From: a virus
Length of the DNA stretch: 64,000 nucleotides
IMG/VR virus record: IMGVR_UViG_3300023176_007781
Span: 27,209-91,208 of that record
Reading direction: 5' to 3' (one strand)
Shown: piece by piece, positions 1-49,213 of the stretch
How the letters are laid out: each line of letters opens with the position of its first letter
How positions within the stretch are numbered: the stretch's first letter is position 1
Program-made: the position numbers and the translations under genes
Notes under the pieces: generated by a model
What the model saw: the letters and a program-made list of their open reading frames with translations, nothing else
Told to the model about the DNA's origin: nothing
The model's database searches: none

Positions 1-193
1 TAATTGATTGCTCAGAAAATTCTTTGCCGTAACAGTTGACTATATTAGGTGGATTTTCCCAGCTGTACTGTTTAAAAGTATTTAATTCATATACTAATTT
101 CATATTAAAACCAACAATCATACCCAAAACTAAAGACAAAAACAAAGCTGAAAAAATAACCACCATGTCTGTTTTTTCACTTTTTTCAATCAT
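1..193 (-). CDS. Partial single-pass membrane protein, cut by the window edge
   Basis: An open frame runs from an ATG at 193 to the window start, giving about 64 residues of a longer protein. It begins MIEKSEKTDM and is followed by one hydrophobic segment at about residues 11-30 (VVIFSALFLSLVLGMIVGF). A polar region containing a cysteine comes next. The layout suggests a type II membrane protein with its C-terminal part outside the cytoplasm, but the rest is missing and I recognise no family. The ATG overlaps the TGA of the preceding lipoprotein gene (ATGA), so the two are probably translationally coupled. A spanin or other envelope protein is possible but unsupported. Confidence 0.6.
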   Translation of the reverse strand, partial: MIEKSEKTDMVVIFSALFLSLVLGMIVGFNMKLVYELNTFKQYSWENPPNIVNCYGKEFSEQSI

Positions 194-1734
194 TCTCCAC
201 ACCCTCTGACAGCATATTTTACATTAATTGTTTGCCCTGGTTCCGGCACACTGTCTTCAAAAAATGAAACTTTGTTATCATCTTCAATGTATTCCCAATC
301 AGCACTTATCTGACCGTTGACTGTAACTTCTATTGTTTCAATTAAAACATCATTTTCACTAAGCGGAAAAAATCTAGAAGTACTTACTTCTTCAGCTAAA
401 TCTTGCAATTGCATCCCCCAATCTTCCGCACAAATAGAGTACCATTTTCCTCCGTAATGATTGATTAATTCATGGTAACCATAACCTGGTTGAGCAACGT
501 TATAACCCCAACTACTAAGTTGGCACCCGTTAGGTATATCACCTATTACACCGTACGGTATAAAATCACCAGCTGGTTTCAAACTATCAAAAAATGTAGT
601 ATATGTTTGCCAACCATTGTACGACCAATCTTGCTCATCAGAAACATATATTACAACTAGTTTAGAATCTGTTCTAAAAAATGGGCTCCCGGGACCACTG
701 TATAAACCATTAGACAATGACTGAAAAGACATTTCTATACCCTGTTCTATACCACTTCCGCCTATTCCTGGCATTAAAAGCTGTGCCAATACATTTGAAG
801 CATTTGGAGTACTATTACTTACGATCGTAGTAAATGAAGGATCATCAGTTGTGATAACTGCTATGTGAAAATCAGCACCAACATTAAAAAATGCATTTAC
901 GAAAACGCCAGTATTGTTAGCCAAATTAGTTTGAAAACGGTTCATTGAGCCTGAGTTATCAATTACCCACAATATATCTAAAACTGGTACCTCATCTTGG
1001 ACCCAAGTTTCATCATACCATTGTTCAACTTCTCCATAACCCTTTTGAGTAATTTGGTATTCCGCTTTCTGTGGATCATTACTGGTAATTTTTATAATAC
1101 TTTCATCATTACCAATATCGTTTGGTATATAAGAAACTAAAAAGTCTAACTGGTGCGTAGGTTGTATTACCCACGGCGTAGATGGCAATGTGCCATTTTC
1201 TAAAATTATATCCACTGGTGAATTTACTAATTGATCTAGATCTTCAATTATCAAATCTAGATTGCCACTATTTTCTATCGTTATACGTTCTTCAATATCA
1301 CAGCCGATTGTGATGTCTCCCCAATCAATAGTTTCTGGCTCTATATTTAGCACTGGGGCGTCGCCGTAACCTTCAAGTGTAACTTCTACAGTGGTCGTTT
1401 CCTCATCGCTGCTGATTATTCTTACTATTCCTCCATTTGCTTCATAAGTTTCAGGCGTATAGTCAACTTTTAATTCCACTATTTCATCGATGCCTATAAC
1501 AAGTGGTATATTTGTATCAATAGAGAATCTACTATTACCAGAAATTAACTCGGGGGACAAGATTTCTAAATCAGAGTCCCCCGAATTTATAATATATATG
1601 TTTTCACTTGCGTTTTCATGCCCCGACAGCAAATGGCCAAAATCAATGTGCTGTGGATGAACTAATAATGTCGGTTGTTTTGGATCAGTTTTTATGACAC
1701 CATAATCAACACAGCCTAACGCAAGAAATAACAT
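190..1734 (-). CDS. VWA-domain lipoprotein with two ASH-like domains
   Basis: The 514-residue protein starts at the ATG at 1734, because the GTG nine bases upstream is part of the strong ribosome site GGGAGGTG. The N-terminus MLFLALGC contains a lipobox with Cys8, so the product is probably an outer-envelope lipoprotein, although the signal peptide is unusually short and has no basic residue. Two repeats at about residues 25-125 and 130-235 have the HIDFG/TIDWGD openings and the xNSGxxDL core of ASPM-SPD2-Hydin (choice-of-anchor D) domains. A von Willebrand A domain follows at about 250-420 with the MIDAS motif DNSGSM near residues 259-264 and a later YVSDEQDWS. Such domain combinations are common in Myxococcota and Bdellovibrionota secreted proteins and unusual in phages, so host capture is likely. 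It could alter the surface of the infected cell, but its role is unknown. Confidence 0.82.
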   Translation of the reverse strand: MLFLALGCVDYGVIKTDPKQPTLLVHPQHIDFGHLLSGHENASENIYIINSGDSDLEILSPELISGNSRFSIDTNIPLVIGIDEIVELKVDYTPETYEANGGIVRIISSDEETTTVEVTLEGYGDAPVLNIEPETIDWGDITIGCDIEERITIENSGNLDLIIEDLDQLVNSPVDIILENGTLPSTPWVIQPTHQLDFLVSYIPNDIGNDESIIKITSNDPQKAEYQITQKGYGEVEQWYDETWVQDEVPVLDILWVIDNSGSMNRFQTNLANNTGVFVNAFFNVGADFHIAVITTDDPSFTTIVSNSTPNASNVLAQLLMPGIGGSGIEQGIEMSFQSLSNGLYSGPGSPFFRTDSKLVVIYVSDEQDWSYNGWQTYTTFFDSLKPAGDFIPYGVIGDIPNGCQLSSWGYNVAQPGYGYHELINHYGGKWYSICAEDWGMQLQDLAEEVSTSRFFPLSENDVLIETIEVTVNGQISADWEYIEDDNKVSFFEDSVPEPGQTINVKYAVRGCGE

Positions 1735-1785
1735 ACATAACACCTCCCTTAAAAATAAGTCACTAATTATAAGTATTGTGAAATA

Positions 1786-2270: not shown

Positions 2271-2826
2271 GTTTAACCTCGTTGTGTAAGTAAGTTTTTT
2301 GATTGTTAGGATTTGAACCTAAAACAAAATCTTTTATAGATCCTATGTTACCATTTACACCACAATCAATTTTTATTTTATTTCTAAAATTTAATATTAT
2401 GTTCTTATTATAGCAGTAAAAATCTTTACCATGCACATTAACTTGTTTGTTAATTTTACGTGCATAACTATTCCATGATTTAGAATGCATTAGATACACA
2501 TCATCATTTGACAACAGTTTAATTACATAGTATTTGTTATCACCAATAAAATTCTTAGTTTTTGAAACAGGGAACAGCCCATCATCATTTAACAAAGTAA
2601 ATAATTCAAAATGTGCAATAATATATTTTCGTTCATCAAATAAAAGTATATCACCATTTCTTAATTCTAATTTTGCTAAATCTACCTTTGTGTAATTTTT
2701 ATTTTTTTGTTTAAAATAATCCCAAGTAGGAATAACATTTAACTTGTTTTCTAACATTAAATTATAAAATTCCGTTTGAAATTTTTTACCTCTTTTAGCA
2801 CGATCAGTATTTTCATTATATAACAT
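2242..2826 (-). CDS. Hypothetical protein
   Basis: This 194-residue protein has a basic N-terminal third, then alternating hydrophobic and polar segments suggesting beta strands (ELRNGDILLFDERKYII), and a polar C-terminus. I recognise no family. A GGAGA ribosome site lies six bases before the ATG, and a promoter-like element (CTATAA, 17 bp, TATAAT) lies directly upstream. It is therefore probably the first gene of the transcription unit that continues through the small SH3-like gene to the VWA lipoprotein. Confidence 0.7.
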   Translation of the reverse strand: MLYNENTDRAKRGKKFQTEFYNLMLENKLNVIPTWDYFKQKNKNYTKVDLAKLELRNGDILLFDERKYIIAHFELFTLLNDDGLFPVSKTKNFIGDNKYYVIKLLSNDDVYLMHSKSWNSYARKINKQVNVHGKDFYCYNKNIILNFRNKIKIDCGVNGNIGSIKDFVLGSNPNNQKTYLHNEVKHANSSIQSK

Positions 2827-16614: not shown

Positions 16615-16962
16615 TGGTGGACCCGGCGAGAGTCGAACTCGCGTCCGCAATAGTCTTAGTTTAAGTCATTCACAACTATAGTTAATTATATCGTCAACTA
16701 ACAAACTATCCACAACATTTTAAATCTTTTATGTGGCCTCCAGATTTAGACTTATTTTATTCTTCTGTCGTTGCTAAAGTCATCACGCAATATATCCGTT
16801 ATTGGACTGATGGTAAACGGAAACCACCCGATTAGGCTGCGATTGCTGCTGCTTCGAAATGCTTATTATTATTTGCAATTATTGTTTTTGAACTGTTAAG
16901 GCCGAATCTCACCTAGTTGCACTCTCCCCTTGATTCTACCCCGTCGATACCATTACGGGCCC
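16615..16962 (-). ncRNA. ssrA: tmRNA (transfer-messenger RNA)
   Basis: The 348-base RNA has both halves of a tRNA(Ala)-like domain. The 5' end GGGCCCG pairs over seven positions with CGGGTCC at the 3' end, leaving A plus an encoded CCA. The third pair is G-U, the alanine identity element. The typical 5' GGTATCGACGGGG and the T-arm GAGTTCGACTCTCGC are present. The tag frame (16876-16832) reads ANNNKHFEAAAIAA followed by TAA, ending in AIAA where most bacteria have ALAA. tmRNA and SmpB rescue stalled ribosomes and mark the nascent protein for proteolysis; no smpB is visible here, so host SmpB would be used. A TATAAT at 16978-16983 could be its -10 box. Confidence 0.95.
16832..16876 (-). other. 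tmRNA tag reading frame
   Basis: The frame begins at the resume codon GCA (16876-16874) and encodes ANNNKHFEAAAIAA before TAA at 16834-16832. The hydrophobic AIAA end is what ClpXP-type proteases would see, as a conservative variant of LAA. It lies between the expected pseudoknot regions. Confidence 0.85.
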
Positions 16963-23741: not shown

Positions 23742-24263
23742 TTACTCCGGGAGAAATAATTCTAATAATTTAATTACTTGGTCTTCTCGACCATATCTAG
23801 CTATTAAATCGGGCCAAGTTTCAGATTCATCTGTACTCCCGGGAGGCCGGCCCATTTGAGTTAAATAATTGATATCGACATGTTCTTCTAGAATATTGTT
23901 CCTAATCCAGTCGCAGTAACCAGCACATCTTCTCAACATTTCTATTAATGCATCAATTTGTTTGTGTCTGATATTATCATCAATGTCCCACCAATTATAT
24001 GCCTCTATTTCTAGAAATTTAGCATTTCTAATTACAACCCAGTTTTGTGGTCTTTCGTAACTATATTCATCACCATATAATTCATGCAAATATGAATCAT
24101 GATCGATTACATGACTTTTATCCGGATTAGCCATTCGATATTCTTCTATATCATGCAAATTGCCTTGATCATCGATGAAACCAAATGATATATAATTACA
24201 GGCTGTGTTAGAAGTTTCTAACAGTATGTTTCTAATATATTTTCTTAGTGCGAAGCCTAGCAT
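23742..24263 (-). CDS. B-tagged hypothetical protein
   Basis: The 173-residue protein begins MLGFALRKYIRNILLE with a predicted cut after Glu16. Its body includes YISFGFIDDQGNLHDIEEY, which resembles a short beta-hairpin, and a Trp- and Asp-rich middle (EAYNWWDIDDNIRHKQ). It overlaps the upstream gene by 32 bases, so its tag and the C-terminal tag-like end of that gene are encoded by overlapping DNA in different frames. No alternative start preserves the tag. Function unknown. Confidence 0.75.
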   Translation of the reverse strand: MLGFALRKYIRNILLETSNTACNYISFGFIDDQGNLHDIEEYRMANPDKSHVIDHDSYLHELYGDEYSYERPQNWVVIRNAKFLEIEAYNWWDIDDNIRHKQIDALIEMLRRCAGYCDWIRNNILEEHVDINYLTQMGRPPGSTDESETWPDLIARYGREDQVIKLLELFLPE

Positions 24264-26218: not shown

Positions 26219-27022
26219 CTATTTCCTTGAAGGCAATGTGCCGTAATGATAATACTTCATAGTATCTTTATATTGCTTTCGTAAACTTTTAATAGCTTCT
26301 CGAATCATTTTTAATGCTTGTCGACCATCCGAAAAAGAAGCAAGATCCTGACGATCTTTTTCATACTTAGCATCACTCAAATACTTTTCCAAATTGTTAG
26401 CTGCCCTAATGATATCCTTTTCTAAAACAAAATTATTAATGTATTTATGAAGCCTGGTTCTGTCCGCCAAGTCTTGACCAAAAAACCCGATGTCGGATCC
26501 TTTAAAACCAAACTCATTCCCAGTATCACTTTCCATTCTTTCATTAATTGTTTTTATCCATATATCTTCAGCTACACGGGACAAATTATAAACTTGATTA
26601 TTTGTATAACCACGCAAATTCAACATAAAAGGAGGTATACGATCGTCAAAGTTTCTATCAACTGTACCCGGACCATCAGGGTTAGGTACCTCTTCATCAT
26701 GTATTCTTGATATCATTTCCATTTCTTCTGTATAGCCTTTACTTTTATCATAAAACCCGTACGGCTCATTAATTAATGGTGCAACTAATGCATCCGTTTG
26801 CTTGCCATCATCAGCCCGCAAAGTGGCTAACTTATCACCATACTTTTCTTTCTGTTCATCAGACAAATACTCTTCCGGAGGCTTACGACGATTTGGAGCA
26901 TTTTTTGTAAACCAATGTTGATACGTGTGCGGCAATGACCGTTGAACCAAATTAGGCTGAGTTATAACGTTTTCAATCGCTTCTCTAATAAAATATCGAA
27001 GTTGCCTTTTTGTAAGCCTCAT
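26219..27022 (-). CDS. A-tagged protein, PHTYQ paralogue 1
   Basis: The 267-residue protein begins MRLTKRQLRYFIREAIENVI, an A-tag variant with FIRE at 11-14. It shares its whole body with the protein at 27609-28415: SLPHTYQ, the PE.Y.S.EQK.KY pattern, an NEPxGxYDxSKGxTEE block and a C-terminal YL(S/T)DAKY helix pair ending K(Q)YKxxMKxY. The two were produced by duplication, now separated by one unrelated gene. I recognise no fold. The high conservation of the NEP-YD-KG block suggests an active or binding surface. Confidence 0.8.
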   Translation of the reverse strand: MRLTKRQLRYFIREAIENVITQPNLVQRSLPHTYQHWFTKNAPNRRKPPEEYLSDEQKEKYGDKLATLRADDGKQTDALVAPLINEPYGFYDKSKGYTEEMEMISRIHDEEVPNPDGPGTVDRNFDDRIPPFMLNLRGYTNNQVYNLSRVAEDIWIKTINERMESDTGNEFGFKGSDIGFFGQDLADRTRLHKYINNFVLEKDIIRAANNLEKYLSDAKYEKDRQDLASFSDGRQALKMIREAIKSLRKQYKDTMKYYHYGTLPSRK

Positions 27023-36347: not shown

Positions 36348-37052
36348 TTACTTCTCCTTTCTAAAATCTGGCCAACCTAATTTTTCTCTAAATTCTTCTC
36401 TGTATTTTTCTGGATCCTGTCGATAAGTGCCTACCTTTATTCTTTTTAATCTAAATAAGTCTTTTATTATTGGTTGATGCGCTTTACCAATATCATTGAT
36501 TTTAAAGTATTTGTATTTTGACCAGCCATACTTTTTATCATGATAAATGTCTAAGTTAATATTTCTGTGGTGATCTCTGGGATTCATTTTACATGGAAGT
36601 GGTGCTGGTGTCACATCATATCTAGTTGTAACATATTTTTTCCAAACGTTTTCTGCTTCTGCGGAAACTGTATGTCTGTCGCACATAAGCCCAGTGTCAC
36701 CAGCTATTTCAATTGCAATGTCATATAATAATGGACCAGCGCTTTCCGTTTTTGCGTACGCATTAACGACTTCGTATGTCTTACACGTATGATTATACTC
36801 TACGTCTATATGATCAGTCATGCGAACAAGCCCTGACCCATCTCCACGCGCAGCTTCTAAACTTACTCTAAATGCTTCACCGGCCGGTTTTAAAGGCATG
36901 GTCTTATTTTGCATGCCATCGACCACAATAAAAAATTTTTCTGCATACTTTGGATCTGTGTAATATTCTCCTGGTTCATCTAAATTACTGATATCATGTG
37001 GGCTCATCATACCTTCCATAATTTTTCTAATGTATTTTTTTAAATTCTTCAT
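36348..37052 (-). CDS. B-tagged GNAT-like domain protein
   Basis: The 234-residue protein has MKNLKKYIRKIME (Glu13). At about 95-155 it contains the repeated domain of this window: an upstream CKTYEVVNAYAKTES, then AGPLLYDIAIEIAGDTGLMC, DRHTVSAEAENVWKKYVTTR. This matches the GNAT pattern in which a G-x-G turn, here GPLLYD, starts the CoA-binding helix and A-x-x-VW-x-x-Y stands for the later motif. GNAT enzymes transfer acyl groups to proteins, antibiotics or other amines. The similarity is by pattern and needs a profile search. The domain occurs in eight or nine proteins here. Confidence 0.6.
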   Translation of the reverse strand: MKNLKKYIRKIMEGMMSPHDISNLDEPGEYYTDPKYAEKFFIVVDGMQNKTMPLKPAGEAFRVSLEAARGDGSGLVRMTDHIDVEYNHTCKTYEVVNAYAKTESAGPLLYDIAIEIAGDTGLMCDRHTVSAEAENVWKKYVTTRYDVTPAPLPCKMNPRDHHRNINLDIYHDKKYGWSKYKYFKINDIGKAHQPIIKDLFRLKRIKVGTYRQDPEKYREEFREKLGWPDFRKEK

Positions 37053-37369
37053 ACTTTTGCCTTTGGTTTGTTAACTATATAACCCGCTGTAACTAACCAG
37101 TTTTCAATTCTGCCACTTTCTAATATTATTGTTGCTAGCCAAGCATTTTCACCACGAGTACGTTTGTTTGTTTCAATAATTATGGCGCTAGCAAGCAACT
37201 TACTTTCTAATTTTTTAATAGAAATTTCATCTGGTAAATCTTCTTCATCAGCAGCTGAAATAAATTTAAACATCTTTGCGCGATATGTAATACTAAAGCC
37301 TAAATCAATATCAACTTCTATAGAGCCATCTGCATAGCATTTTATCAATTTAGCTTTGTACTTATTCAT
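37049..37369 (-). CDS. SNase-like OB-fold protein with degenerate active site
   Basis: The 106-residue protein resembles short phage thermonuclease-like (SNase) proteins: YKAKLIKCYADGSIEVDIDL and GFSITYRAKMFKFI at the N-terminus, and later a WLATIILESG strand and VTAGYIVNKP. The catalytic DGDT is DGSI here and the usual acidic and arginine residues are missing or shifted, so it may bind rather than cut nucleic acid. It is untagged, in contrast to its neighbours, and overlaps the next gene by four bases. Confidence 0.55.
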   Translation of the reverse strand: MNKYKAKLIKCYADGSIEVDIDLGFSITYRAKMFKFISAADEEDLPDEISIKKLESKLLASAIIIETNKRTRGENAWLATIILESGRIENWLVTAGYIVNKPKAKV

Positions 37370-37372
37370 TTT

Positions 37373-38218
37373 TTACCCATTTATTAAAGCATCTATTTTA
37401 TTTTTTTGACTTTTTGCAAAAGGACTCATGAGTTTTAATCGCTTATTACTTGCAAACCACGTTAGAAGACCCGGGTTTTTTTTGTAATAAACTTTTGAAA
37501 ATACATTGTTTGGGTCCTGAACATATTTTAAATATTTCGATGAAGGAGCTAAAGGCTTTGCAGTGTTTTTTAAAACGTCATCCTGGTGATCAACAAAATA
37601 TCCATATAATTCCATTGGGTCATCTGCCGGGCCATACAATTCTTGTACTTCAGGGTATGCATTTTCTACACCAATATCTATGGTTTTGCCATGTTGCTCC
37701 ATACTCCATTTGTCTGCACTCATAATATCTGCGCAATCATCTTCTGGGTCGTCTGTCAATGGACTGCCCGGCAAATCTAATTGCACAGTTTCTATGTCAG
37801 ATCTCAATTTAAGATATTTTTCCCAAACTTCTTGCGCTGCTACAGAAACTTCATATCTATCATTAACCAATCCGTGACCGCCGATTAAATACACCCATTC
37901 CATTAATGCATCGTAGCACACTGGTCCAAAACCCAGGACATGTGCCTTTGCCCACTTAACCATATATGCATCATTACATGGGCCGAAAGCTGTTTTATAT
38001 TTACCTTTTCTCATATGACTAGTTCTTGTGTACAAAAAGTCTATTGTTACTAACAACAAATCACCATTAAATAGTTTAATGTATCCATCACCCGCGTCAG
38101 CCATTTTTATGTGTAAATGTGGATCTTTTATTAGGCTTAACAAACTCCATATCTTTTCATCCGGCAAATCATTTGCTTCAACTAATATTGATCTAATATA
38201 TTTTCGTAAATTTTTCAT
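37373..38218 (-). CDS. B-tagged GNAT-like domain protein
   Basis: The 281-residue protein begins MKNLRKYIRSILVE (Glu14). It carries the same domain as its neighbours: CNDAYMVKWAKAHVLGFGPV, CYDALMEWVYLIGGHGLVND, RYEVSVAAQEVWEKYLKLRS and DIETVQLDLPGSPLTDDPED. The GPVCYD replaces GPLLYD. The C-terminal third is family-specific and may bind the substrate. Its start overlaps the stop of the metalloprotease-like gene (ATGA). Confidence 0.62.
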   Translation of the reverse strand: MKNLRKYIRSILVEANDLPDEKIWSLLSLIKDPHLHIKMADAGDGYIKLFNGDLLLVTIDFLYTRTSHMRKGKYKTAFGPCNDAYMVKWAKAHVLGFGPVCYDALMEWVYLIGGHGLVNDRYEVSVAAQEVWEKYLKLRSDIETVQLDLPGSPLTDDPEDDCADIMSADKWSMEQHGKTIDIGVENAYPEVQELYGPADDPMELYGYFVDHQDDVLKNTAKPLAPSSKYLKYVQDPNNVFSKVYYKKNPGLLTWFASNKRLKLMSPFAKSQKNKIDALING

Positions 38219-39504
38219 GGTATTCTCAAATTTTTAAACTTGTTCATCTTTTGTCTTAAATATTCTTTTTTAATTGCACGTGACAATTGTTTAACTAACA
38301 TGTTTTTAAACTTATCTTTATCTGGAAACTCTGATGCTATTTTATTATAATTTTTAACGGTCCAGTTGTAATCATATTTTTGAAACATAGAAAACATATC
38401 ATCAAAGAAACGTTTGATACCAGTAGGAGCTTTGTTAATGTTGACTAAATCATTTGCTATTGCAGTAAATGCTTGATCAAAATCTTCATTTTCTAATTTG
38501 CTTTGTATTGTATCAAAATTATCCTGTACGTATTCAACAGCTGTGTGGTATATGTGAGCTTGTACTTCATGTGACTCTAAAAAATAGTCTGTAGTAGGAT
38601 AAACTTTTTTAATCTGTATTTTTTTTTGTTTTGACAAAAGATCTTTAAATTTTACGCCACCGAAAATAAAATCTTTGTTATCAATATCAAAAAGATGACT
38701 ATAAGTAAGCGTTATATCGTTCTTTTTAATTGTTTCTTTGTAGTCTGCTAGATTTTGTTTATAAAAAGCGCCTTTTCTGTCAGCTGAAAGTAGGCTGGCA
38801 GCACTATCACTAATTTCAATTTTCTTAATTTTGTTTAAACGTTGTACAACTATTCTTCCAAGTAACAACCAATATGAACCAACAAACTGTAAAAAATGTA
38901 TAAATTCATGTATAATAGTAGCATTTGCTCTCTTGGACATGGCAGTTTTAAGTTTCATATCTATTATTGGCATCTCAATACCATCGCCTGTCGGCAAATT
39001 ATTAGCAATATCTGCCTTAAATCTTCCTTCCGCACCTAGCATTGCAAAACCAGCTAGTATTCGAAAGCCAATAAACATATCTATATCTCGCCGATTTTCA
39101 GCACAAAATTCACTGGTTTTTTTGATTAATTTTTCCCTTTTTTCATAAAGCACGTTACGTTCATTTTTTATTTTTTCTACAGTGCTACCTTTAAACCGGT
39201 TTTTTTGATTAACATTTTCGAAATAATCCTGTTCAAACATTTCAAATATTAAATCATTTATTGCATCATCTAAATTTTTATTATCTATTTTTAAACTTGC
39301 ATGTATGTAATTGCCGATTTCAAGTAGAGGTGTGCGATATGGAAATTCTGCTGTTGAATAATGCACAGTATTTCTGCCTTCTGTTGATTCGCCTGAAACT
39401 AGTTTATCTTTATGTGCAATAATAGTGTTTAATGCTTTATCGTGACCTAATAAATTAATGCTTTCATTAATTGTTTGTCTTATATATTGTCGTAAATGAT
39501 TCAT
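38215..39504 (-). CDS. B-tagged zinc metallopeptidase-like protein with a C-terminal A-tag-like end
   Basis: The 429-residue protein begins MNHLRQYIRQTINE (Glu14). It has the zincin motif HEFIH at about 199-203 within ATIIHEFIHFLQFVG, and later ESHEVQAHIYH near 310-320, which could supply a third ligand. Zincins of this layout are often peptidases. The C-terminus SRAIKKEYLRQKMNK resembles the A-tag, giving this protein both kinds of signal. If packaged and active it might act during entry on the cell wall or on a host protein; the substrate is unknown. Confidence 0.68.
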   Translation of the reverse strand: MNHLRQYIRQTINESINLLGHDKALNTIIAHKDKLVSGESTEGRNTVHYSTAEFPYRTPLLEIGNYIHASLKIDNKNLDDAINDLIFEMFEQDYFENVNQKNRFKGSTVEKIKNERNVLYEKREKLIKKTSEFCAENRRDIDMFIGFRILAGFAMLGAEGRFKADIANNLPTGDGIEMPIIDMKLKTAMSKRANATIIHEFIHFLQFVGSYWLLLGRIVVQRLNKIKKIEISDSAASLLSADRKGAFYKQNLADYKETIKKNDITLTYSHLFDIDNKDFIFGGVKFKDLLSKQKKIQIKKVYPTTDYFLESHEVQAHIYHTAVEYVQDNFDTIQSKLENEDFDQAFTAIANDLVNINKAPTGIKRFFDDMFSMFQKYDYNWTVKNYNKIASEFPDKDKFKNMLVKQLSRAIKKEYLRQKMNKFKNLRIP

Positions 39505-40190
39505 ACTTCAATCCCCATAGCTCTCACCCGATCTCCATGTACTGCTTCTCCGTTCATGATAAATTTGAACGTAAGCAATCCCATATCGTATAAAGCATTT
39601 ATCGTGTTAGTATGCATAGGTTTCTTTATAAATTTGTTTGTTGAAAAGTGATTTGCATAAGTTAACTCATCTATTTCGTTCGAGGATTTGGATCCATCAT
39701 ACTGCCTCTGGGAACAATCGTCAGAAGGATCGTTCGGTGTTATCCACGGTTCATCTCTGTAATCAAGCAATATTGCTTCAACGTCATCCCGAGCTCCTAG
39801 ATAATGATACCAGACTTTTCTTGCCTTTAAAGATGTTATATGCCGATCAGACATGATCCCATCTTCACCAGCAAACTCCATCGCAAGATCATATAAGAGT
39901 GGACCTAAGCCAGAGACAGATTCAACAATGCCAGCATCCTCAACAGACCAAGCGCTATCACAGTTGCCTTCCCCATAGTAGTTATCATTTTGCCAAACCA
40001 AATATAACTGCCCAACGTTCCCAAACCTGGGATTTGGATCTCCTGTTGCTGGTCTTTTCTGAGCCTGAAGCCAGATCTGAGATGGACCAACTTTGAATAC
40101 TATATGGATGTTTTTGTCTTTCATTAGTGATGGTGTATACATCCCTTCTGTTAACAATATGTTCCTTATATACTTTCTTAATTGTTTCAT
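39501..40190 (-). CDS. B-tagged GNAT-like domain protein
   Basis: The 229-residue protein has MKQLRKYIRNILLTE (Glu15), then the common domain at about 75-155: NCDSAWSVEDAGIVESVSG, LGPLLYDLAMEFAGEDGIMS, DRHITSLKARKVWYHYLGAR, DDVEAILLDYRDEPWITPND and PSDDC. It is one of the best matches to the shared pattern. The N-terminal strands (IHIVFKVGPSQIWLQAQ) may be the family's substrate part. ATGA overlap with the gene after it. Confidence 0.62.
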   Translation of the reverse strand: MKQLRKYIRNILLTEGMYTPSLMKDKNIHIVFKVGPSQIWLQAQKRPATGDPNPRFGNVGQLYLVWQNDNYYGEGNCDSAWSVEDAGIVESVSGLGPLLYDLAMEFAGEDGIMSDRHITSLKARKVWYHYLGARDDVEAILLDYRDEPWITPNDPSDDCSQRQYDGSKSSNEIDELTYANHFSTNKFIKKPMHTNTINALYDMGLLTFKFIMNGEAVHGDRVRAMGIEV

Positions 40191-40882
40191 TTTACTTTCT
40201 CTGCTATGTCAAAAAAATTAGAGCCATCTCTTTTTAATAATTTTGATTTTCTTCTGTCAAGTCTATAAACAGCCATAGGTTTCAATGGACCTTCGTGAGC
40301 AATGTCAGCACCCATATCAATCAAACTTAATTTTTCTTCATCACTCATTACATCTACTAAATATCTTCCCCCCGTCGCAAAAGCATCATATTCACCGCCA
40401 ACTAAGGCATCATACAAACTATAGTAACCCAAACCTTGTCCTTCATCATCGTATGGCTCTTCTTCTAAATAATATTTTGCCATTTGGTCAAGCCAGGGCA
40501 CCTCTTTATTGTATATCATTTCTCCTATGCTATCTTCATCTGGATGTATATTAGATAAATCTTTGCCAGCAATTGCAAATACGTATCCGTATCTACCATA
40601 CTTTTCCTCTAACTTTGATGTGCCATGACCCGCCATATCTCCGCCAAGTGCATACATTTGTACGGTCGCAATACTTGGTGTTATATAAACCATACCATCT
40701 ACTGGTCGAAGCGGACCTGACCTATTTGATAGATCGGGTGGTTTTATCTCGCCAGCTGACATTATAGACTTTGCATATTTTTCAATCGGTGTACCATGAT
40801 AATAAACAGTGTCAGAGTGATCAGTGCTAGGTGCTGCCATCTCTCTTAGCAAGTTTTGTATGTATAATCGCAAATGTTTCAT
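40187..40882 (-). CDS. B-tagged ADP-ribosyltransferase-like protein (H-Y type)
   Basis: The 231-residue protein has MKHLRLYIQNLLRE (Glu14). TVYYHGTPIEKYAKSIMSAG with His29 and GMVYITPSIATVQMYA with Tyr66 match the first two conserved regions of the H-Y-E branch of ADP-ribosyltransferases (YHGT, then a Y-[LI]-T strand). The final acidic residue cannot be placed with certainty; YEFD- and EDE-rich stretches follow. It could use NAD to modify a protein, nucleic acid or small molecule. It is the second or third ART-like tagged protein in the window, which supports a packaged-effector theme. Confidence 0.68.
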   Translation of the reverse strand: MKHLRLYIQNLLREMAAPSTDHSDTVYYHGTPIEKYAKSIMSAGEIKPPDLSNRSGPLRPVDGMVYITPSIATVQMYALGGDMAGHGTSKLEEKYGRYGYVFAIAGKDLSNIHPDEDSIGEMIYNKEVPWLDQMAKYYLEEEPYDDEGQGLGYYSLYDALVGGEYDAFATGGRYLVDVMSDEEKLSLIDMGADIAHEGPLKPMAVYRLDRRKSKLLKRDGSNFFDIAEKVK

Positions 40883-40890
40883 TTTGCCCT

Positions 40891-41361
40891 CTATTTTGGT
40901 GGTAGTGTATCACCGTGAGCCATGGCAACAAGATTTCTAACACGATTTTCTTGGTCCATCGATTTTACTAATTCACCTATGTTTTTAACTTGTTCATTTA
41001 TCTGACCGACTTGATTTTTTATAAAATCTATGTCATCACCGTCAGCATCTTGCTTAACTAAAAAGTTTGAAGTTTTCTGATCTATTTTTTGCACTATTGA
41101 TCCAACAGCTTCTACTCTTTGTTTAATTTGCAACCTCATTTGTTTCTTTTCACTGTCATACTTTGCTATGACATCATCATATCTTTCACGCAGTAATTCT
41201 TGATCACCTTTGTGAATGTTTTGCATTTCTTCTAGTTGAACCTGAAACCTATCTACTAGTGCATCCATTCTGGCTTGCATATTTGTATAAAGCCATATTA
41301 AGAATGCTGCAAATATTCCTAATGAGCCGTGGTCTAATAACATTTCTAATATTTCTGTCAT
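40891..41361 (-). CDS. Holin-like single-helix coiled-coil protein (BhlA/UviB type)
   Basis: The 156-residue protein has a short acidic N-terminus, one transmembrane helix at about residues 13-27 (SLGIFAAFLIWLYTN), then a long charged coiled coil (60-145). This is the layout of BhlA/UviB-type phage proteins, often called holin-like, though coiled-coil bacteriocin-related roles are also reported. It has no tag and lies between tagged genes. Expression late in infection would fit a lysis role. A non-lytic membrane scaffold is the alternative. Confidence 0.55.
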   Translation of the reverse strand: MTEILEMLLDHGSLGIFAAFLIWLYTNMQARMDALVDRFQVQLEEMQNIHKGDQELLRERYDDVIAKYDSEKKQMRLQIKQRVEAVGSIVQKIDQKTSNFLVKQDADGDDIDFIKNQVGQINEQVKNIGELVKSMDQENRVRNLVAMAHGDTLPPK

Positions 41362-41915
41362 TCTTCTTGTCCTCCATGTGTATGTTTAAATGGTCGAATA
41401 TTTCCTACAGCATCATCTGTATTTCTTATGCCTGTGGCTGATCGAGTTTGTTCGTCTATCTCATCTTTAAAAGATGGCACCAGTCCATACATGTCTATTA
41501 CTTCTTTACATTGTTCAGCAATGTGCCTCAGTTCATCAGTATCTCTAACACTAAATGCAAAGTTACCAATGTATGTTTTCTTATTAGCAATAAACCAAAG
41601 GGCAATCATAACTCTATCTGGTGTGTGTAGATTTGAGTATTTTCTAAAAATATCTACATCCCAGCTCCAAAAAGTGTGACGTGCCAAGTCATGAAATTTA
41701 TCCTCTAATGTTTCTTCTTCTGCCATTTCATCTACATCTTCAACAGTACTATACCATTCTTCGCCTATCATGCCCTCACGTAAACACTCATCAAAGTCTT
41801 GTCGAAATTTATCATTTAAACCATAGTAACAATCACTGAAAGTATTCCAGCTTAACCATTGCATGTTGATAGATTCTCTTAAAATATTCCTAATATATTT
41901 TTTTAAATTTTTCAT
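41358..41915 (-). CDS. B-tagged protein, shares a C-terminal domain with the next gene upstream
   Basis: The 185-residue protein has MKNLKKYIRNILRE (Glu14). Its C-terminal half (DRVMIALWFIANKKTYIGNF, TDELRHIAEQCKEVIDMYGL) matches the C-terminal half of the 41928-42935 product (DRAIMALAVVKEDGLDLGML, LDDVAKQVEEACKKFGV). The pair therefore shares a helical domain, with different N-terminal parts. The function is unknown. Its start codon is preceded by a short gap after the larger gene. Confidence 0.74.
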   Translation of the reverse strand: MKNLKKYIRNILRESINMQWLSWNTFSDCYYGLNDKFRQDFDECLREGMIGEEWYSTVEDVDEMAEEETLEDKFHDLARHTFWSWDVDIFRKYSNLHTPDRVMIALWFIANKKTYIGNFAFSVRDTDELRHIAEQCKEVIDMYGLVPSFKDEIDEQTRSATGIRNTDDAVGNIRPFKHTHGGQEE

Positions 41916-41927
41916 AATCAGTACTCT

Positions 41928-42935
41928 TTATCTATACTTGTCTATTTGAGAGCTAGACCAACCTGGTCCAATTTGTTCATCTACATCTCTGTTCCACTGC
42001 ATGTCGCTAATTTTATCTTCGAGGTCTTCAGGCATCATTACACCAAATTTTTTGCAAGCTTCTTCCACCTGTTTCGCTACATCGTCCAAATCAACACTTG
42101 AATAAGTAAGCATGCCTAGGTCTAAACCATCTTCCTTTACCACAGCGAGTGCCATAATTGCTCTGTCGATGTCGCTGAAATAGCCGCTTCGCCAAAAATT
42201 TGAACTTCCGGGGTCTTCGTACTCTTGATCAATAAATTCTTCCACCGACATTTCACTCCACATTGGATCATTTCCGGGTACATAACCTCTATCATCAATA
42301 TCGTGAGTGTCAACAAGCAACTCGTAGATTTCCGGATACATTTCGAAAGCCTGACCTATGGAAGCTGGTTTTGGTTTGATTTCATTAGATGGGTCATGGA
42401 ATAATAGTTTATGAGATTTGATTGCAGCTTTGTTCCATACACAACCCTGATCAATATCATATCCACTTAGCCAGCGCGGTCCATGTGGTAGAGGGCAAAA
42501 TTCAATACCCGCAAACTCGTCAGCAACTGCATGCCAGTCAGGTGAGGCAAAACTCTCACCTTTAACGTATATACTAGTAAATTTTTCAAATGCTTCATCA
42601 CTATCTATTTTACAAACTGCATTAGCATCAGGTTTGTCAATGGTTGTATAATTTACTTCTAATCTGTACAGAAAAGCTCTTCCTTTTTTAAACTGACCCA
42701 TCATATTATCAGGATTTTTAACATATCGAAGCCACTCATCACCGCAAGCATAAAATAAGCCATGAGGTTTTGGCGTAAACTCGCCTGTCGGCTGTTCTAT
42801 GTTATTTAACTTTTCAACATCTAACTCTGATTGTAAAACAGTTAACAACTCACCTTCATCAGCCGGCTGAGTTTTATAATCAAATACAGACAATTCTGTT
42901 AATAGGTTTCTTACATATTTTCTTAATGTTTTCAT
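41928..42935 (-). CDS. B-tagged protein with the GLFYACGDEW domain
   Basis: The 335-residue protein begins MKTLRKYVRNLLTE (Glu14). A central domain has HGLFYACGDEWLRYVK, then VNYTTIDKPDANAVCKIDS, PDWHAVADEFAGIEFCP and YDIDQGCVWNKAAIKS. I know this succession of blocks from other uncharacterised phage proteins, where it recurs with W-[YF]-x-x-G-D-x-W and I-x-x-C-P-x and DxxxGCVWN. It has no assigned activity; a nucleotide-binding or ADP-ribosylation-related fold is possible. The C-terminal helical domain is shared with its downstream neighbour. Confidence 0.72.
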   Translation of the reverse strand: MKTLRKYVRNLLTELSVFDYKTQPADEGELLTVLQSELDVEKLNNIEQPTGEFTPKPHGLFYACGDEWLRYVKNPDNMMGQFKKGRAFLYRLEVNYTTIDKPDANAVCKIDSDEAFEKFTSIYVKGESFASPDWHAVADEFAGIEFCPLPHGPRWLSGYDIDQGCVWNKAAIKSHKLLFHDPSNEIKPKPASIGQAFEMYPEIYELLVDTHDIDDRGYVPGNDPMWSEMSVEEFIDQEYEDPGSSNFWRSGYFSDIDRAIMALAVVKEDGLDLGMLTYSSVDLDDVAKQVEEACKKFGVMMPEDLEDKISDMQWNRDVDEQIGPGWSSSQIDKYR

Positions 42936-42944
42936 TTTGTTTTC

Positions 42945-44117
42945 CTAGTATATTTTATTAGCTTTATTCATTTCATGGTTTTTCTTAACATTAGGCGAGA
43001 ATATGTCTAAAAAACTATCTCCATCAACATCTTCTAAAAACCTATTGTACATATCTTTTGTACTGTCATCTAAATCTTCTTCTTCAAATCGCAATTCATC
43101 TTCTATCATAATTTCTTTTTCTACTGCACATGCATCATAAAAATCTATATCTAAGTAGCCATCTTCATCAATTATTGGTATATCATCATAACATGTATCA
43201 TGGAAAAAATTATCAGATGCTTCAGAATTAAAAAATGCTTGTTTCATTTCACTAGGTATACAAATCGCTACAATTTCCCAGTTGTCAATGATAGCTTCTG
43301 GCCAGTTTAAATCCATGCCGCGGTTTCCATCATCATCTAGTATGTCATCAAAAGGATTTAAGTCCTCTTTTCCTTTTATTATTATATCATATATATTGCT
43401 AATTTCGCCTTCTTTATCTTGCAACATGACGTCATCGCTACCGTATTTAATATTGTCAGCTGCATCATCATCACCCTGTTCAAGTGCTTCAATGTATTCT
43501 CTTGATTTAGAGGCGCGGGTTTCAAGAGATGCAACGTCAGGTCTAGAAGGTACGCCACTAGTTTTGTATTGGTTATACATATATGCTAATTCAGTCGGTT
43601 TTAACATTGTAACCAACTTATTATAATTTTCTCTGTCACGATGTGTAATGTACTTTTTTAGACCTGGATCACGCTTGGCTTTTACTATTTTGTCATACGA
43701 CTTTAACAACTTTAAAAATCTACCCGGCCGACCCGAATCTAAATCAACTTTTGAGGCAAATGTTACATATCCATCAATCACAATGCCTATAACATGCTCA
43801 TCCATCAGCTTAAAAGGTTCGAAAGTTTCTTCAGTTTTGTGGATATATGTATTAATCTCATTTCTTTGTCGACCACGTACATTAAAATATAAATCGACCG
43901 CTTGTTGAAAAGGTGCCCAATGAATATAGGTTAAACCATCTTTTAATCGACTTTGCCCTTTTGCTCCACCAGTTGTTTTCTGAAAAAACTGTTTTAGCTG
44001 TTTTGCTTGGGTACCTTTGTATCTACTAGATCGGTGGTGAAGTAAGTCACCCATCTGTGCTAGCTTCTCACCTTTTTCAGTGATAACATTTCTTATATAT
44101 TTCCTTAAGTCAATCAT
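42945..44117 (-). CDS. B-tagged protein with the shared G-x-A-D / NE domain
   Basis: The 390-residue protein starts MIDLRKYIRNVITE (Glu14). It contains IGIVIDGYVTFASKVDLDSG (Gly116) and further on NWPEAIIDNWEIVAICIP near residue 275, aligned with the two blocks in the 32176-33639 and 54592-55398 proteins. The remaining C-terminal part is very acidic (about 300-370). Upstream of the domain lies YIHWAPFQQAVDLYFNVRG. The shared domain could be ART-like, but the evidence is only the pattern. Confidence 0.74.
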   Translation of the reverse strand: MIDLRKYIRNVITEKGEKLAQMGDLLHHRSSRYKGTQAKQLKQFFQKTTGGAKGQSRLKDGLTYIHWAPFQQAVDLYFNVRGRQRNEINTYIHKTEETFEPFKLMDEHVIGIVIDGYVTFASKVDLDSGRPGRFLKLLKSYDKIVKAKRDPGLKKYITHRDRENYNKLVTMLKPTELAYMYNQYKTSGVPSRPDVASLETRASKSREYIEALEQGDDDAADNIKYGSDDVMLQDKEGEISNIYDIIIKGKEDLNPFDDILDDDGNRGMDLNWPEAIIDNWEIVAICIPSEMKQAFFNSEASDNFFHDTCYDDIPIIDEDGYLDIDFYDACAVEKEIMIEDELRFEEEDLDDSTKDMYNRFLEDVDGDSFLDIFSPNVKKNHEMNKANKIY

Positions 44118-45152
44118 TCACTTCACCTTCTGATATGGTTTCCACCAAGTGTTGTCTTTATAAATACATCCAAAATATGATTCTATTAATTCTAATAAAC
44201 ACTGATCGTTTGGTGCATCATCATGGCCGAACTCCATAAAAAATGCATTAAAGTATTGTAAAGCTTCATATATAATGGCATTATTGTTTTGCACCGATAC
44301 TTTTTGTTTTATTTTTACACCTATGTCATACAAATCACCATCAGATAAAATACCATCAAGTGCAGGGTTATATACAATAGGAGCATCTCTATTTTCTAAA
44401 TCTACAGCAGAAAGTTTATGGTTTGTATTATAGTTGTGTAATGATGGCAAATCATCTAAGTTAGTACTAGTTATTTTTTCTTTTTCAGAGTCCATTAATA
44501 TAAAATCATATTTGTCGAAAAGATTTTTATTTCTTATGTATTTATAAAAATTCATAGCAGCATCAGTAATTGAAGGTATTACCTTTTTGTTCCCACGTTT
44601 GCCGACTTCTTTTTGCCCTCTATCCGGAACCATGATTTTTGGATGCAAATGTGATAACATCATATCTTTCATTAGTGGCCCAAATTTAGAGCCTATGTGC
44701 GCTGCAGTGTATTCAATGTAATAAGAATTTTTTGAGGAACTAGTCGGTTTTGCTTTAATCATTCCATCAATTGAAGCAAAGAACATCCAAAGATCACCAC
44801 GATATTCATCTGCGCCATATAAATCAATTGCTTGCGGTTCTTCAAACTCAAATGGTTCATACATGTAATATTTTTTTACCAATGGTGCAACTTTTCTTAA
44901 AGCACCGTCATTATTATTTGCATCGTTTATTGCTTCAATAAATTTTTTGCCAAGTTTCGTCAGCTGACTAGTCGGTGCAATATTCTGTTTTGCACAGTTG
45001 ATGTATTCATCGATCAAGCTTTTGTTAAATAAAGCAATCATTATACATTCAGTTCCAGTACTGTCAGCTCCTTCGTAAACATATGTATAGTGGTTACTTA
45101 CACCAGGATTAACGTAATTCTCAAATAACAATTTTTCTAAACTATAAGTCAT
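44118..45152 (-). CDS. Loosely B-tagged, divergent GNAT-like protein
   Basis: The 344-residue protein starts MTYSLEKLLFE, a shortened tag ending L-F-E at residue 11. A divergent version of the repeated domain appears at about 150-205: IEYTAAHIGSKFGPLMKDMM, LSHLHPKIMVPDRGQKEVG and ITDAAMNFYKYI, matching the GPLLYD, SDR and A-x-x-VW-x-x-Y blocks. It is the most distant member of the set. It overlaps the stop of the previous gene (TAATG). Confidence 0.58.
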   Translation of the reverse strand: MTYSLEKLLFENYVNPGVSNHYTYVYEGADSTGTECIMIALFNKSLIDEYINCAKQNIAPTSQLTKLGKKFIEAINDANNNDGALRKVAPLVKKYYMYEPFEFEEPQAIDLYGADEYRGDLWMFFASIDGMIKAKPTSSSKNSYYIEYTAAHIGSKFGPLMKDMMLSHLHPKIMVPDRGQKEVGKRGNKKVIPSITDAAMNFYKYIRNKNLFDKYDFILMDSEKEKITSTNLDDLPSLHNYNTNHKLSAVDLENRDAPIVYNPALDGILSDGDLYDIGVKIKQKVSVQNNNAIIYEALQYFNAFFMEFGHDDAPNDQCLLELIESYFGCIYKDNTWWKPYQKVK

Positions 45153-46267
45153 TATCTTTCTACCATACGTTTTCTAAAAAAGTTTAATAATATACTGTCA
45201 TAATTATCATGGTCTTCACAGAATTCCCAAAAATCTACTTCTAAACCGTGCCAATTGTTAAGATGATGTACAAGGTCACCTAATTCACCTTTAACATCTG
45301 TGTGTCTGCGTTGCAATATACTATGTTCCCAAGAAAATGCACTAGTGTTATAGCTTAAATCTAGTGCCACACTGTCAGGATCGTTCTCTGTAAAATCATC
45401 TTTAATACTATCCCATGGCACTTCATTATGTAAGTCATGTTCTATTTCCCAATGGTCTTCCATCCATTGTTCTTCTATTTCTTCTACTGTTTCGCTATCA
45501 TTTCCAAAATGATTTTTCATCCAATTTATAATTATAAATGGCGAATTCGCTCTATCAGCCCAGCCTTGTTTTTTGCAAATATCAACAATATCTTTATCAA
45601 AATTATTTTCAAGCCACATCATAAAAGCAGTGTTATATGCTTGTCGCAGCGGGGGGTCGTCACTCCAATAGGATTCTGTATCGTCAAAATCAGTCATAGT
45701 AATTTTTGCATCACCACCATCAAGGTATTTCTTTTCTATATCCGGTCTTTTAAATGCATAAGTGTTATAAACTTTTCTAGCCGACGACGACACTTCTTCT
45801 CTATCAGAAGTTATGCCATCTCCAAAATAAGACATTGTTAAATCATATAGTGTCGGACCATAACCTTCTATGGCTGCAGCTCTTGTAATTTGCATTGCAC
45901 CATTAGTATTTTCACCCTCCTGGTTTTCCGCTCTAATTGCTGCTTTAGTGCAATCGTAAAGCACAGAATAAAACTCATCAGAAATTTCATTATAAATAGC
46001 AGTACTAGCATCTCTGTTATCTATAGCCGCGGCCGCAACAGCATTTCCTGCATCTGTGTGAACCTCATATGATTTTTCTATAACTTTTTTCATTTCTTCT
46101 AAAAATTTTACCCTATCATAAAGTATGCATGTGTAACCGCCCATGAAAACACCGCCACCCGCACTTGCATGATATAGTGCCATGTTGTCTAACACCTCAT
46201 TACTCTTAGGTGATTTGTAACTAGATTCTATTATTATATTTTGTATTAGCTTTCTTAGAGTTTTCAA
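45152..46267 (-). CDS. B-tagged GNAT-like protein, triplet member 1
   Basis: The 371-residue protein has MKTLRKLIQNIIIE (Glu14) and is the last member of three tandem paralogues. The common domain is TNGAMQITRAAAIEGYGP, TLYDLTMSYFGDGITSDREE and VSSSARKVYNTYAFKRPDIE. An N-terminal region with ALYHA.AGG and ILYDRVKFLEEM is shared by all three. The C-terminal part is acidic and repeats the LDLSYNT.A motif. Triplication suggests selection for variation in target or dose. Confidence 0.66.
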   Translation of the reverse strand: MKTLRKLIQNIIIESSYKSPKSNEVLDNMALYHASAGGGVFMGGYTCILYDRVKFLEEMKKVIEKSYEVHTDAGNAVAAAAIDNRDASTAIYNEISDEFYSVLYDCTKAAIRAENQEGENTNGAMQITRAAAIEGYGPTLYDLTMSYFGDGITSDREEVSSSARKVYNTYAFKRPDIEKKYLDGGDAKITMTDFDDTESYWSDDPPLRQAYNTAFMMWLENNFDKDIVDICKKQGWADRANSPFIIINWMKNHFGNDSETVEEIEEQWMEDHWEIEHDLHNEVPWDSIKDDFTENDPDSVALDLSYNTSAFSWEHSILQRRHTDVKGELGDLVHHLNNWHGLEVDFWEFCEDHDNYDSILLNFFRKRMVER

Positions 46268-47331
46268 TTTTCTGCTCCTGCGTAGTGCTCGTCGAAAAAG
46301 CCAATTAATATACTCTGGTATGTATTAGACTTTATTTTTTCAAACATGCCAGCAAATGATTCTTCAAGTTCATAGCCATTGTATAATATATCCTCAACCA
46401 TTTCATTTAAAATAAATAAAAAGTCCTCGTGTGCTTTTGTTAAACTTTTAAAAGCTTCTTTTGCATAATCAGTGTTAAAGCTTAAGTCTAACTCTTCATT
46501 AGGTTCAAAAACTATAGTTGGTGAAAATTTAAATAAGTTTCTTTCTATATTTTCTTTATCAGACTCCCACTGCGAAACAATATCATCTATAACAAAATCC
46601 TGTGAATAATACTTTTTTATTAACCTTACAGCAGTGTAAGGGTGTTTACTAAAATATACGCTATCCACAGCATCATATAGACCCGGGTCATAACTTTTTA
46701 ACCATAATTCAAAAGCATCCTTGTACGCATTTTCTATCATTTTATTATTTCCAGCATGATCTGGACAGTCATCATTACTTATATCCGTGACACTATCTGG
46801 GTCTAAGTATTTTTTCTCAATATCTGGCCGTTTCTCTGCATAGAAACGATATACCTTTCTCGCAGAACGGCTGACAGAACCCCTATCTGGAATTATTCCA
46901 TTTTCCTCTATCGACATAACTAAGTCATACAGCGTAGGTCCATAACCTTCAATAGCTGCAGCTCTGCTTACTTCCGAAGCGAGATTGCAGCTGTCGAAGG
47001 GTTCTTTTGTTTGTATTACAGCGACAACACAGTGAGGAAGTATTGCAGTAAACACATTTCTCAGAGAAGATTCAAATTCTAATGACATGTAAAAAGTATA
47101 TTCGTCACCCGGGGTGATGGGTTCTTCGTTAGCAGCGTAAGCAGAAATTTCAGTTCTAAGATGATGTCTCATCATGCTTTTCATTTTAGATTTATCATAT
47201 AAAATATAGTTTTTATATAAATAATCTGCAGTACCGTGATAAAGTGCAAAATTTGTTTGTACTTTATCACTGCGTGGATCTTTCATTGCTTCTGCAATAA
47301 TTTGTGAAACTAATAATCTTAAACTACTCAT
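46264..47331 (-). CDS. B-tagged GNAT-like protein, triplet member 2
   Basis: The 355-residue protein starts at 47331 (MSSLRLLVSQIIAE, Glu14), overlapping the upstream stop as ATGA; the extension upstream lies in the previous gene. Its layout follows its two neighbours: ALYHGTADYLYKNYILYD, SRAAAIEGYGPTLYDLVMSI, EENGIIPDRGSVSRSARKVY and RFYAEKRPDIEKKYLDP. Note ALYHGT near residue 32, which resembles the first motif of H-Y-type ARTs, but the GNAT-like block is the better match. Confidence 0.66.
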   Translation of the reverse strand: MSSLRLLVSQIIAEAMKDPRSDKVQTNFALYHGTADYLYKNYILYDKSKMKSMMRHHLRTEISAYAANEEPITPGDEYTFYMSLEFESSLRNVFTAILPHCVVAVIQTKEPFDSCNLASEVSRAAAIEGYGPTLYDLVMSIEENGIIPDRGSVSRSARKVYRFYAEKRPDIEKKYLDPDSVTDISNDDCPDHAGNNKMIENAYKDAFELWLKSYDPGLYDAVDSVYFSKHPYTAVRLIKKYYSQDFVIDDIVSQWESDKENIERNLFKFSPTIVFEPNEELDLSFNTDYAKEAFKSLTKAHEDFLFILNEMVEDILYNGYELEESFAGMFEKIKSNTYQSILIGFFDEHYAGAEN

Positions 47332-48464
47332 TTGCCACCTTCGTAGTGAGCATGGAAAAAATCCAATAATATATTTTCCCAAAAACTTGGTTTTAAATCG
47401 GTTATCATACCATCGATTGGCACTTCACGGCCATATATTTCTTGCAACATATAGTACAACCCCATTTCCATTTCATCTAAAAATTTATCGTGTGCTGCCG
47501 TTAATTTATTGAAAGCGCTCACAGCATAATCAGTATTATAACTTAAGTTAAGCTCTTCTTTGGGTTCTAAAATGGCGGGTGGTTTTAGTTTATAGAGATT
47601 TTTTTCTATTTCCTCTTTTTCTTCATACCAACTAGTTTGCAGCTCACTTAACTCGCCTTCATCATACATTTCTCCAAACTCAACAGAATCAATTATGTAT
47701 CTTATAACATCATCTGGACCTCCGAAGTGATCTACCACATCGTAAAAACCGCCTTTGTTGTCAAGCGCTTGATAAATTTCACGATTGTAACTAATTAACC
47801 AGTCACCGAAAGCTTCGTAAACAGCTTTTCTTAGTAAGCTGTTTTTATACATTTCTTTTGGTGTCATGTATGTGTAACAATCATCAGATGTTATATCAGT
47901 TAACATGCCGCCATCAAGGTATTTTTTTTCAATCTCTGGACGTTTTTCTGCGTAAAATCTATAGACTTCCCTAGCAGAGGAGCTAACCTGTGCTCTGTCC
48001 GAAGTTATACCATTCGGTTCAATAGACATTACGATATCATACAACGTTGGACCATGACCTTGTTTTGCCGCGGCTCTTACAACTTGCACTGCGCCATTGC
48101 AATCAATATCATTTTTTTTAGTTTTTATAATTGCGTATGTGTGTTCATATATTATTTCCCAAAAAAAGGATCTTACATCATCCCAGTTCCATCTTTCTCC
48201 AGAGTCATTAAATCCTAATACAAGCTTGCCGGTCACTGTTTTTCTTATTAGCGGTGCGAACATATCTATTATTGTTTCTTTATCACTTAATCTTTCTGCT
48301 ACTTCTGTTTTGTTATAAAGGATATAAATTTTAACGCCGGCACTCGAGGGAGAATCGTAATCATTTGCGGCATATAACGCGTAGTTCTGCAATATTTCGC
48401 CACTATTCGGGTTAATCATGCCTTCAGATACAATTTTCCTTATAAAACTTCTTAAATTTTTCAT
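47328..48464 (-). CDS. B-tagged GNAT-like protein, triplet member 3
   Basis: The 378-residue protein has MKNLRSFIRKIVSE (Glu14). Its domain reads DIDCNGAVQVVRAAAKQGHG, PTLYDIVMSIEPNGITSDRA and QVSSSAREVYRFYAEKRPEI, very close to the next gene. It is the first of the triplet to be transcribed. The three have about the same length and order of blocks. No membrane or export signal. Confidence 0.66.
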   Translation of the reverse strand: MKNLRSFIRKIVSEGMINPNSGEILQNYALYAANDYDSPSSAGVKIYILYNKTEVAERLSDKETIIDMFAPLIRKTVTGKLVLGFNDSGERWNWDDVRSFFWEIIYEHTYAIIKTKKNDIDCNGAVQVVRAAAKQGHGPTLYDIVMSIEPNGITSDRAQVSSSAREVYRFYAEKRPEIEKKYLDGGMLTDITSDDCYTYMTPKEMYKNSLLRKAVYEAFGDWLISYNREIYQALDNKGGFYDVVDHFGGPDDVIRYIIDSVEFGEMYDEGELSELQTSWYEEKEEIEKNLYKLKPPAILEPKEELNLSYNTDYAVSAFNKLTAAHDKFLDEMEMGLYYMLQEIYGREVPIDGMITDLKPSFWENILLDFFHAHYEGGK

Positions 48465-48471
48465 ATAATAC

Positions 48472-49140: not shown

Positions 49141-49167
49141 GTAACTTACCTCTTCATATAAATATAC

Positions 49168-49191: not shown

Positions 49192-49213
49192 TGTTTTAAA
49201 ACTATTGCACTAT

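Follow-up and report, generated by a model that had tools for sequence, protein, structure and literature searches.

The VWA lipoprotein gene at the start of this phage sequence sits in a conserved cassette of genes for predicted exported proteins, one of them a protease, and this arrangement appears to be new; no description of a VWA-protease pair in phages was found in the open full-text literature. The window, by which we mean the whole stretch of 64,000 nt that was analysed, is G000:C1:27209-91208 of IMG/VR record IMGVR_UViG_3300023176_007781 (91,208 bases), and the cassette continues beyond its edge on locus L005. The first-pass annotation had considered the lipoprotein by itself, and its picture left out the linked protease and thioredoxin-like genes to which the VWA gene is coupled. 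The features of the cassette are as follows.

190..1743, minus strand: VWA lipoprotein gene (ORF of 517 aa from a GTG at 1743 or 514 aa from an ATG at 1734; supported by its domains and by full-length viral homologues at 48%)
1743..1749, minus strand: Shine-Dalgarno-like AGGGAGG (from the sequence), 8 nt upstream of the ATG at 1734
1711..1734, minus strand: very short lipoprotein signal with lipobox, MLFLALG↓C (from the sequence; lipobox kept in homologues)
1369..1674, minus strand: ASH/Ig-like domain 1, residues 24-125 (PF22544, E 1.5e-11; HYDIN/CEP192-like fold)
1033..1353, minus strand: ASH/Ig-like domain 2, residues 131-237 (PF22073, E 2.6e-11)
379..987, minus strand: VWA/integrin I-like domain, residues 253-455 (VIA-align, Z 15.2 to 1n3y)
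946..960, minus strand: MIDAS loop-1 motif DNSGS, residues 262-266 (DxSxS invariant in homologues)
193..369, minus strand: C-terminal beta domain, residues 459-517 (AlphaFold2 strands; residues 240-517 against integrin beta subunits, rmsd 7-11)
190..193, minus strand: ATGA overlap of the VWA stop with the protease ATG (from the sequence and ORFs)
1..193, minus strand: 5' part of a membrane-anchored matrixin (M10)-type protease gene (full ORF at L005:6859-7410, beyond the window; PF00413 above cut-off)
L005:6315-6848, outside the window, minus strand: thioredoxin-like lipoprotein gene, next after the matrixin gene (PF00085 and PF00578; WCAPC)

The ATG at 1734 is a likelier start than the GTG at 1743, because the AGGGAGG motif lies 8 nt upstream of it, and the signal peptide of the window protein is unusually short. 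The lipobox that had been proposed is borne out by conservation, with a strict match in 81 of the 86 viral VWA proteins and a conserved Cys. The window protein is a choice-of-anchor D / ASH-type Ig domain protein that exceeds the curated cut-off of NCBIfam choice_anch_D (NF012200; 69.6 bits against 45, E 2.8e-19), and both of its ASH domains score above the Pfam cut-off; the two xNSGxxDL repeats described at the outset are INSGDSDL and ENSGNLDL, and they fall in these tandem domains. In an AlphaFold2 model of the lipoprotein (mean pLDDT 83), in which a pTM of 0.46 leaves the relative placement of the domains unsure, the ASH region finds its matches in domains of the HYDIN and CEP192 type, and residues 253-455 superpose on integrin I domains (1n3y, Z 15.2, rmsd 2.9 over 179 residues). 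Only the VWA part of the structural match is firm, because the alignment of residues 240-517 to integrin beta subunits comes at rmsd 7-11. The Pfam VWA model did not reach E 0.001 for the window protein.

The MIDAS-bearing VWA domain recognised by the first-pass annotation is upheld by this I-domain fold in the model and by the motif itself. DxSxS and the loop-3 SDE, with its acidic residue, are invariant across all nine full-length viral homologues, in which the invariant positions are D262, S264, S266, D369, E370, E333 and cysteines 148, 407 and 438. DxSxS is present in 86/86 viral VWA proteins, where the first Asp was partly selected for by the search pattern DILWVID that contains it, and the two Ser were not. 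The canonical MIDAS loop-2 Thr is not evident (the nine-row alignment has S, A or N at that column, followed by an invariant Glu), so that metal binding is not assured; it is likely that the predicted MIDAS of the lipoprotein binds metal.

Searching IMG/VR with an alignment of the VWA proteins (A1) gave relatives on at least 139 stretches, which does not bear out the earlier view that such a protein is rare in phages. Genomes scanned with only the window protein yielded no relatives, and bacterial ones appeared with alignment A1. No VWA relatives were found in plasmid records, and none among 50,697 annotated phage records, given which work on cultured phages would not have revealed the gene. 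We retained 86 VWA loci, equal to 64 clusters at 90% identity, and in 42 of the 64 a protease or thioredoxin gene lies on the same strand within 100 bp of the VWA gene. The partner is trypsin-like in 33 of these clusters (upstream of the VWA gene in 14, downstream in 19), thioredoxin-like in six and a matrixin in three, the thioredoxin count being partly circular since loci L095-L102 came from a thioredoxin query, and the trypsin count not. Several records from clusters without a nearby partner carry a phage-type trypsin gene elsewhere, and the collections are fragmentary, so that a missing partner on a short contig means little. Just upstream of some VWA genes we also observed a conserved gene matching phrog_1128 (L036:7138-7617, with similar genes in L021, L024, L048, L054 and L073); several records with this gene have no adjacent protease.

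A reciprocal search seeded only with trypsin-like proteins (alignment A6) returned 213 relatives, and the best 80 loci were examined. A VWA gene is adjacent on the same strand at 66 of these 80, which is a count of loci and not of independent events, since VWA loci supplied most of the A6 rows, some contigs are common to both searches and the 80 include near-copies. The other 14 have no VWA gene within the stretch examined, and at least two of them (L234 and L254) lie on contigs with a VWA gene elsewhere, namely those of L102 and L021. The trypsin triad is kept in at least 48 of 50 proteins at every position, nearly all of the phage trypsin-like proteases have a hydrophobic N terminus, and the other active-site motifs are likewise intact (WCxxC in the thioredoxin-like proteins, HExGHxxGxxHxxxxxHxMxP in the matrixins). 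Median dN/dS is 0.085 for the VWA gene and 0.067 for the trypsin-like protease, and the former value indicates that the viral VWA genes are under purifying selection. Among PADLOC defence-system models, none matched the VWA, matrixin or thioredoxin-like proteins; the trypsin-like protein weakly matches the protease parts of several systems, which we read as common protease domains.

In the window phage the protease partner is a matrixin (M10) enzyme, with its HExxHxxGxxH zinc site, Met-turn and fold: the protein has an N-terminal membrane helix and the motif HELGHALGYAHxxxxxHIM, and its model resembles the catalytic domains of karilysin and MT-MMP (top matches E 5e-4, TM about 0.5). Its start overlaps the VWA stop, and the thioredoxin-like gene follows on the same strand. 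Beyond the latter, on the opposite strand, are genes for a PA14/GLEYA protein and for a 1,102-aa protein that we take for a putative tail fibre. The PA14/GLEYA gene (L005:5757-6317) lies directly after the putative tail-fibre gene and is convergent with the cassette; its product may be a sugar-binding part of the tail. A tail-fibre-like gene adjoins the cassette in three ASH-VWA lineages only (the window phage, L017 and L095), and this adjacency was not seen in the VWA-only clade.

It is reasonable to postulate, with a probability of roughly 35%, that the VWA lipoprotein and the protease make up an exported envelope module encoded by the phage, in which the lipoprotein is the docking subunit and which acts in receptor removal or superinfection exclusion. 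After infection the phage would export an outer-membrane-type VWA lipoprotein, whose ASH domains would form a stalk and whose MIDAS-bearing VWA domain would find its binding partner within the host envelope or on it. The translationally coupled protease, a matrixin here and trypsin-like in most relatives, would be kept at this place or guided to it and cut an envelope protein, and the thioredoxin-like lipoprotein may handle disulfides in the same compartment as the other two. The benefit would most likely be superinfection exclusion through a phage receptor that is removed or masked, because putative tail-fibre genes adjoin the cassette in the window phage and two relatives, much as the gene for the receptor-binding protein adjoins llp in T5. 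The anatomy of the module is well supported, namely lipobox, domains, DxSxS, intact protease and thioredoxin motifs, gene coupling, conservation across phages and purifying selection; export, membrane destination, metal binding, cooperation of VWA protein and protease, substrate and the role in exclusion are what we infer.

Removal or masking of a receptor is suggested by two precedents. T5 Llp is a phage superinfection-exclusion lipoprotein that shuts the receptor, encoded beside the receptor-binding protein gene (PMC9586334); like the VWA protein of the window phage, L017 and L095 it is a phage lipoprotein with its gene next to a receptor-binding (here putative tail-fibre) gene, and it has a disulfide, the VWA proteins invariant cysteines. 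It is a much smaller protein, though, that lacks a VWA domain and works without a protease (PMC9586334). Complement C2/factor B combines a MIDAS VWA domain with a trypsin-like protease, and in C2 the metal site is needed for C4b binding (PMC9797810), although these are single secreted animal polypeptides, and the parallel is one of working, with relatedness not claimed. Against the proposal, the class of protease varies by lineage, and its substrate may do so too; trypsin-like proteases that have no lipobox could be purely periplasmic; and the N-terminal helix of the matrixin is possibly in the inner membrane, apart from an outer-membrane VWA protein.

The same exported hydrolases, with their intact active sites, might instead serve egress. 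The protease and the thioredoxin-like protein would then weaken the outer envelope late in infection, with the VWA protein tethering or targeting the protease, and so aid lysis. The cassette is among or near virion genes on some contigs (tail tube, sheath and baseplate genes are beside the VWA gene in L063 and L080), which is consistent with this explanation; its position relative to virion genes varies, however, and its neighbours include no recognised gene for a holin, endolysin or spanin. We regard a part in egress as possible, though doubtful.

The first-pass annotation had favoured a gene taken from a host, whose product might coat or alter the cell surface, for instance to help adhesion. 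Developed further, this reading makes the protein a surface adhesin of Myxococcota or Bdellovibrionota that was taken up by the phage and would alter the attachment or predation of infected cells. Much of the bacterial side of that picture stands: by NCBI placement, 63 of the 80 best bacterial VWA matches are in Myxococcota (45) and Bdellovibrionota (18), the family is present in 259/290 Bdellovibrionota genomes, the architecture resembles that of lipoproteins from these phyla, and the suggested surface role is plausible. That such lipoproteins act at the cell surface is known from Bdellovibrio, where an adhesin with lipobox and MIDAS works at the junction of predator and prey and depends on the Asp of its MIDAS DxSxS (PMC11003981). 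The MIDAS-family adhesins of Bdellovibrio (Bd0875 and Bd1483; NF052240) share with the phage protein a lipobox and a MIDAS/VWA domain with a small beta-rich domain (PMC11003981), and the VWA part of the phage protein is 35% identical to Bdellovibrionia proteins. The phage protein differs from them in its two ASH domains, its viral clades and its protease-coupled gene, and it scores 26.4 bits against the NF052240 equivalog cut-off of 700; that model matched 0/14 control genomes. CglD of Myxococcus gliding motility (NF033765), a VWA-domain lipoprotein predicted to reside in the outer membrane (PMC4488436), is matched locally at the MIDAS; it is a far longer bacterial protein (model of 1124 positions), and the phage protein reaches 30.4 bits against a cut-off of 400. 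An ASH-type domain is also found in Erwinia phage proteins (phrog_18474; 26-27% identity), which differ in having no VWA match and in being annotated as hydrolases.

Recent capture from a host is a different matter. The nearest relatives of the window protein, which that annotation would have had us look for among bacteria, are phage proteins at 48% identity over the full length; the best bacterial match is at 33%. In a quick tree of 109 viral and bacterial VWA domains, a viral ASH-VWA group (9 rows, 99 SH-aLRT) and a VWA-only group (20 rows, 100 SH-aLRT) are supported clades, L059 is the sole viral row that groups with bacteria, and the fewest label changes number 3 against 26.6 expected under shuffling. 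An ancient origin of the phage VWA gene in bacteria is likely, and the part of the earlier claim that implied a recent, one-off acquisition is not sustained, the nearest relatives being phage and the viral clades deep. Furthermore, trypsin pairing was seen at 0/80 bacterial VWA loci (flanks of up to 8 kb, a non-exhaustive set). With viral proteins in deep clades of their own and a protease coupling not seen in these bacterial loci, a host-derived adhesin seems to us rather unlikely. A VWA-thioredoxin pairing in bacteria was considered and set aside, since the four weak matches lie 2.7-3.3 kb away and the arrangement differs. No host phylum was called for the VWA-only clade (only 3 matches at E <=1e-30 in 226 genomes), and GroEL was uninformative as a host marker, its closest records being mixed and under 50% identity. 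One record titled Comamonas sp. KCTC 72670 (L124) encodes a VWA protein whose place in the tree is within Myxococcus (support 97); this record may be mislabelled or contaminated.

Envelope upkeep in the infected cell, with protease, thioredoxin-like and VWA proteins acting as periplasmic quality control alongside Hsp20 and GroEL-like genes, is improbable: such genes are nearby in these phages and in domain terms the Trypsin_2 proteases are akin to DegP/HtrA, but the match of the phage protease to long trypsin-like proteins of hosts is only weak, and the VWA-protease pairing is left unexplained. A place in the virion for the lipoprotein or its partners, with a part in entry, is very improbable; the adjoining tail-fibre genes in three lineages and the ASH domains of other phage proteins annotated as hydrolases speak for it, however a lipobox and N-terminal export signals are kept across the family.

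An assembly chimera of phage and bacterial DNA, which the first-pass annotation had raised as a danger, has next to no probability, with nothing found in its favour, and is excluded by two further contigs (IMGVR_UViG_3300018424_000008 and 3300017969_006784) that carry the same locus at 99.9% identity over 17 kb, and the 48% homologues sit on other viral contigs. Agreement with each of the two contigs is 99.9% or more and extends over 12,001 bases of L005 and 9,743 bases of the window; the two may be the same phage population and add no diversity, which comes from the 48% viral homologues. The record and other VWA-bearing contigs have PhoH, NUDIX, cupin, nucleotidyltransferase, Hsp20 and DUF2201-type genes in common, and on some of those contigs the VWA gene has T4-type tail tube, sheath and baseplate genes as neighbours. 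The window phage is a divergent lineage, because most of its structural genes found no match among PHROGs.

Some other features are worth recording. About 14 ORFs start with a common tag like MKxLRKYIRxILxE, mostly in one run at window 36348-55398 and also at 23742-24263 and 26219-27022 on the minus strand; counted over all ORFs, a tag of this kind is on 15/101 of the window phage and on 1/797 in bacterial loci. It resembles the leader by which internal head proteins of T4 are targeted to the capsid, and the tagged ORFs could be a packaged and injected set of proteins. At L004:7336-12058 there is a PrkA-like kinase gene, about 32% identical in its product to the 'serine kinase' of Thermus phage phiYS40, beside genes that resemble SpoVR and YeaH. 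Two RNA genes were also located, the first of which is a possible host marker.

Window 16615-16962: tmRNA gene, tag ANNNKHFEAAAIAA
Window 2298-2369: tRNA-Leu (taa) gene, overlapping the 3' part of ORF 2242-2826

The VWA-protease gene pair is widespread and apparently undescribed, and it bears on the means by which phages, once they have infected uncultured bacteria, take charge of the surface of the host. From the pairing one would expect MIDAS lipoproteins to have a protease as partner, and a case can be made for superinfection exclusion that is actively proteolytic, whereas known exclusion lipoproteins such as T5 Llp act by binding alone. We would suggest, quite tentatively, that in many uncultured phages a MIDAS lipoprotein picks a target in the host envelope and passes it to a trypsin-like or matrixin protease encoded alongside, stripping receptors from the infected cell as a counterpart in working to complement C2/factor B. 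The cassette may point to a common way of remodelling the infected-cell surface across many uncultured viruses.
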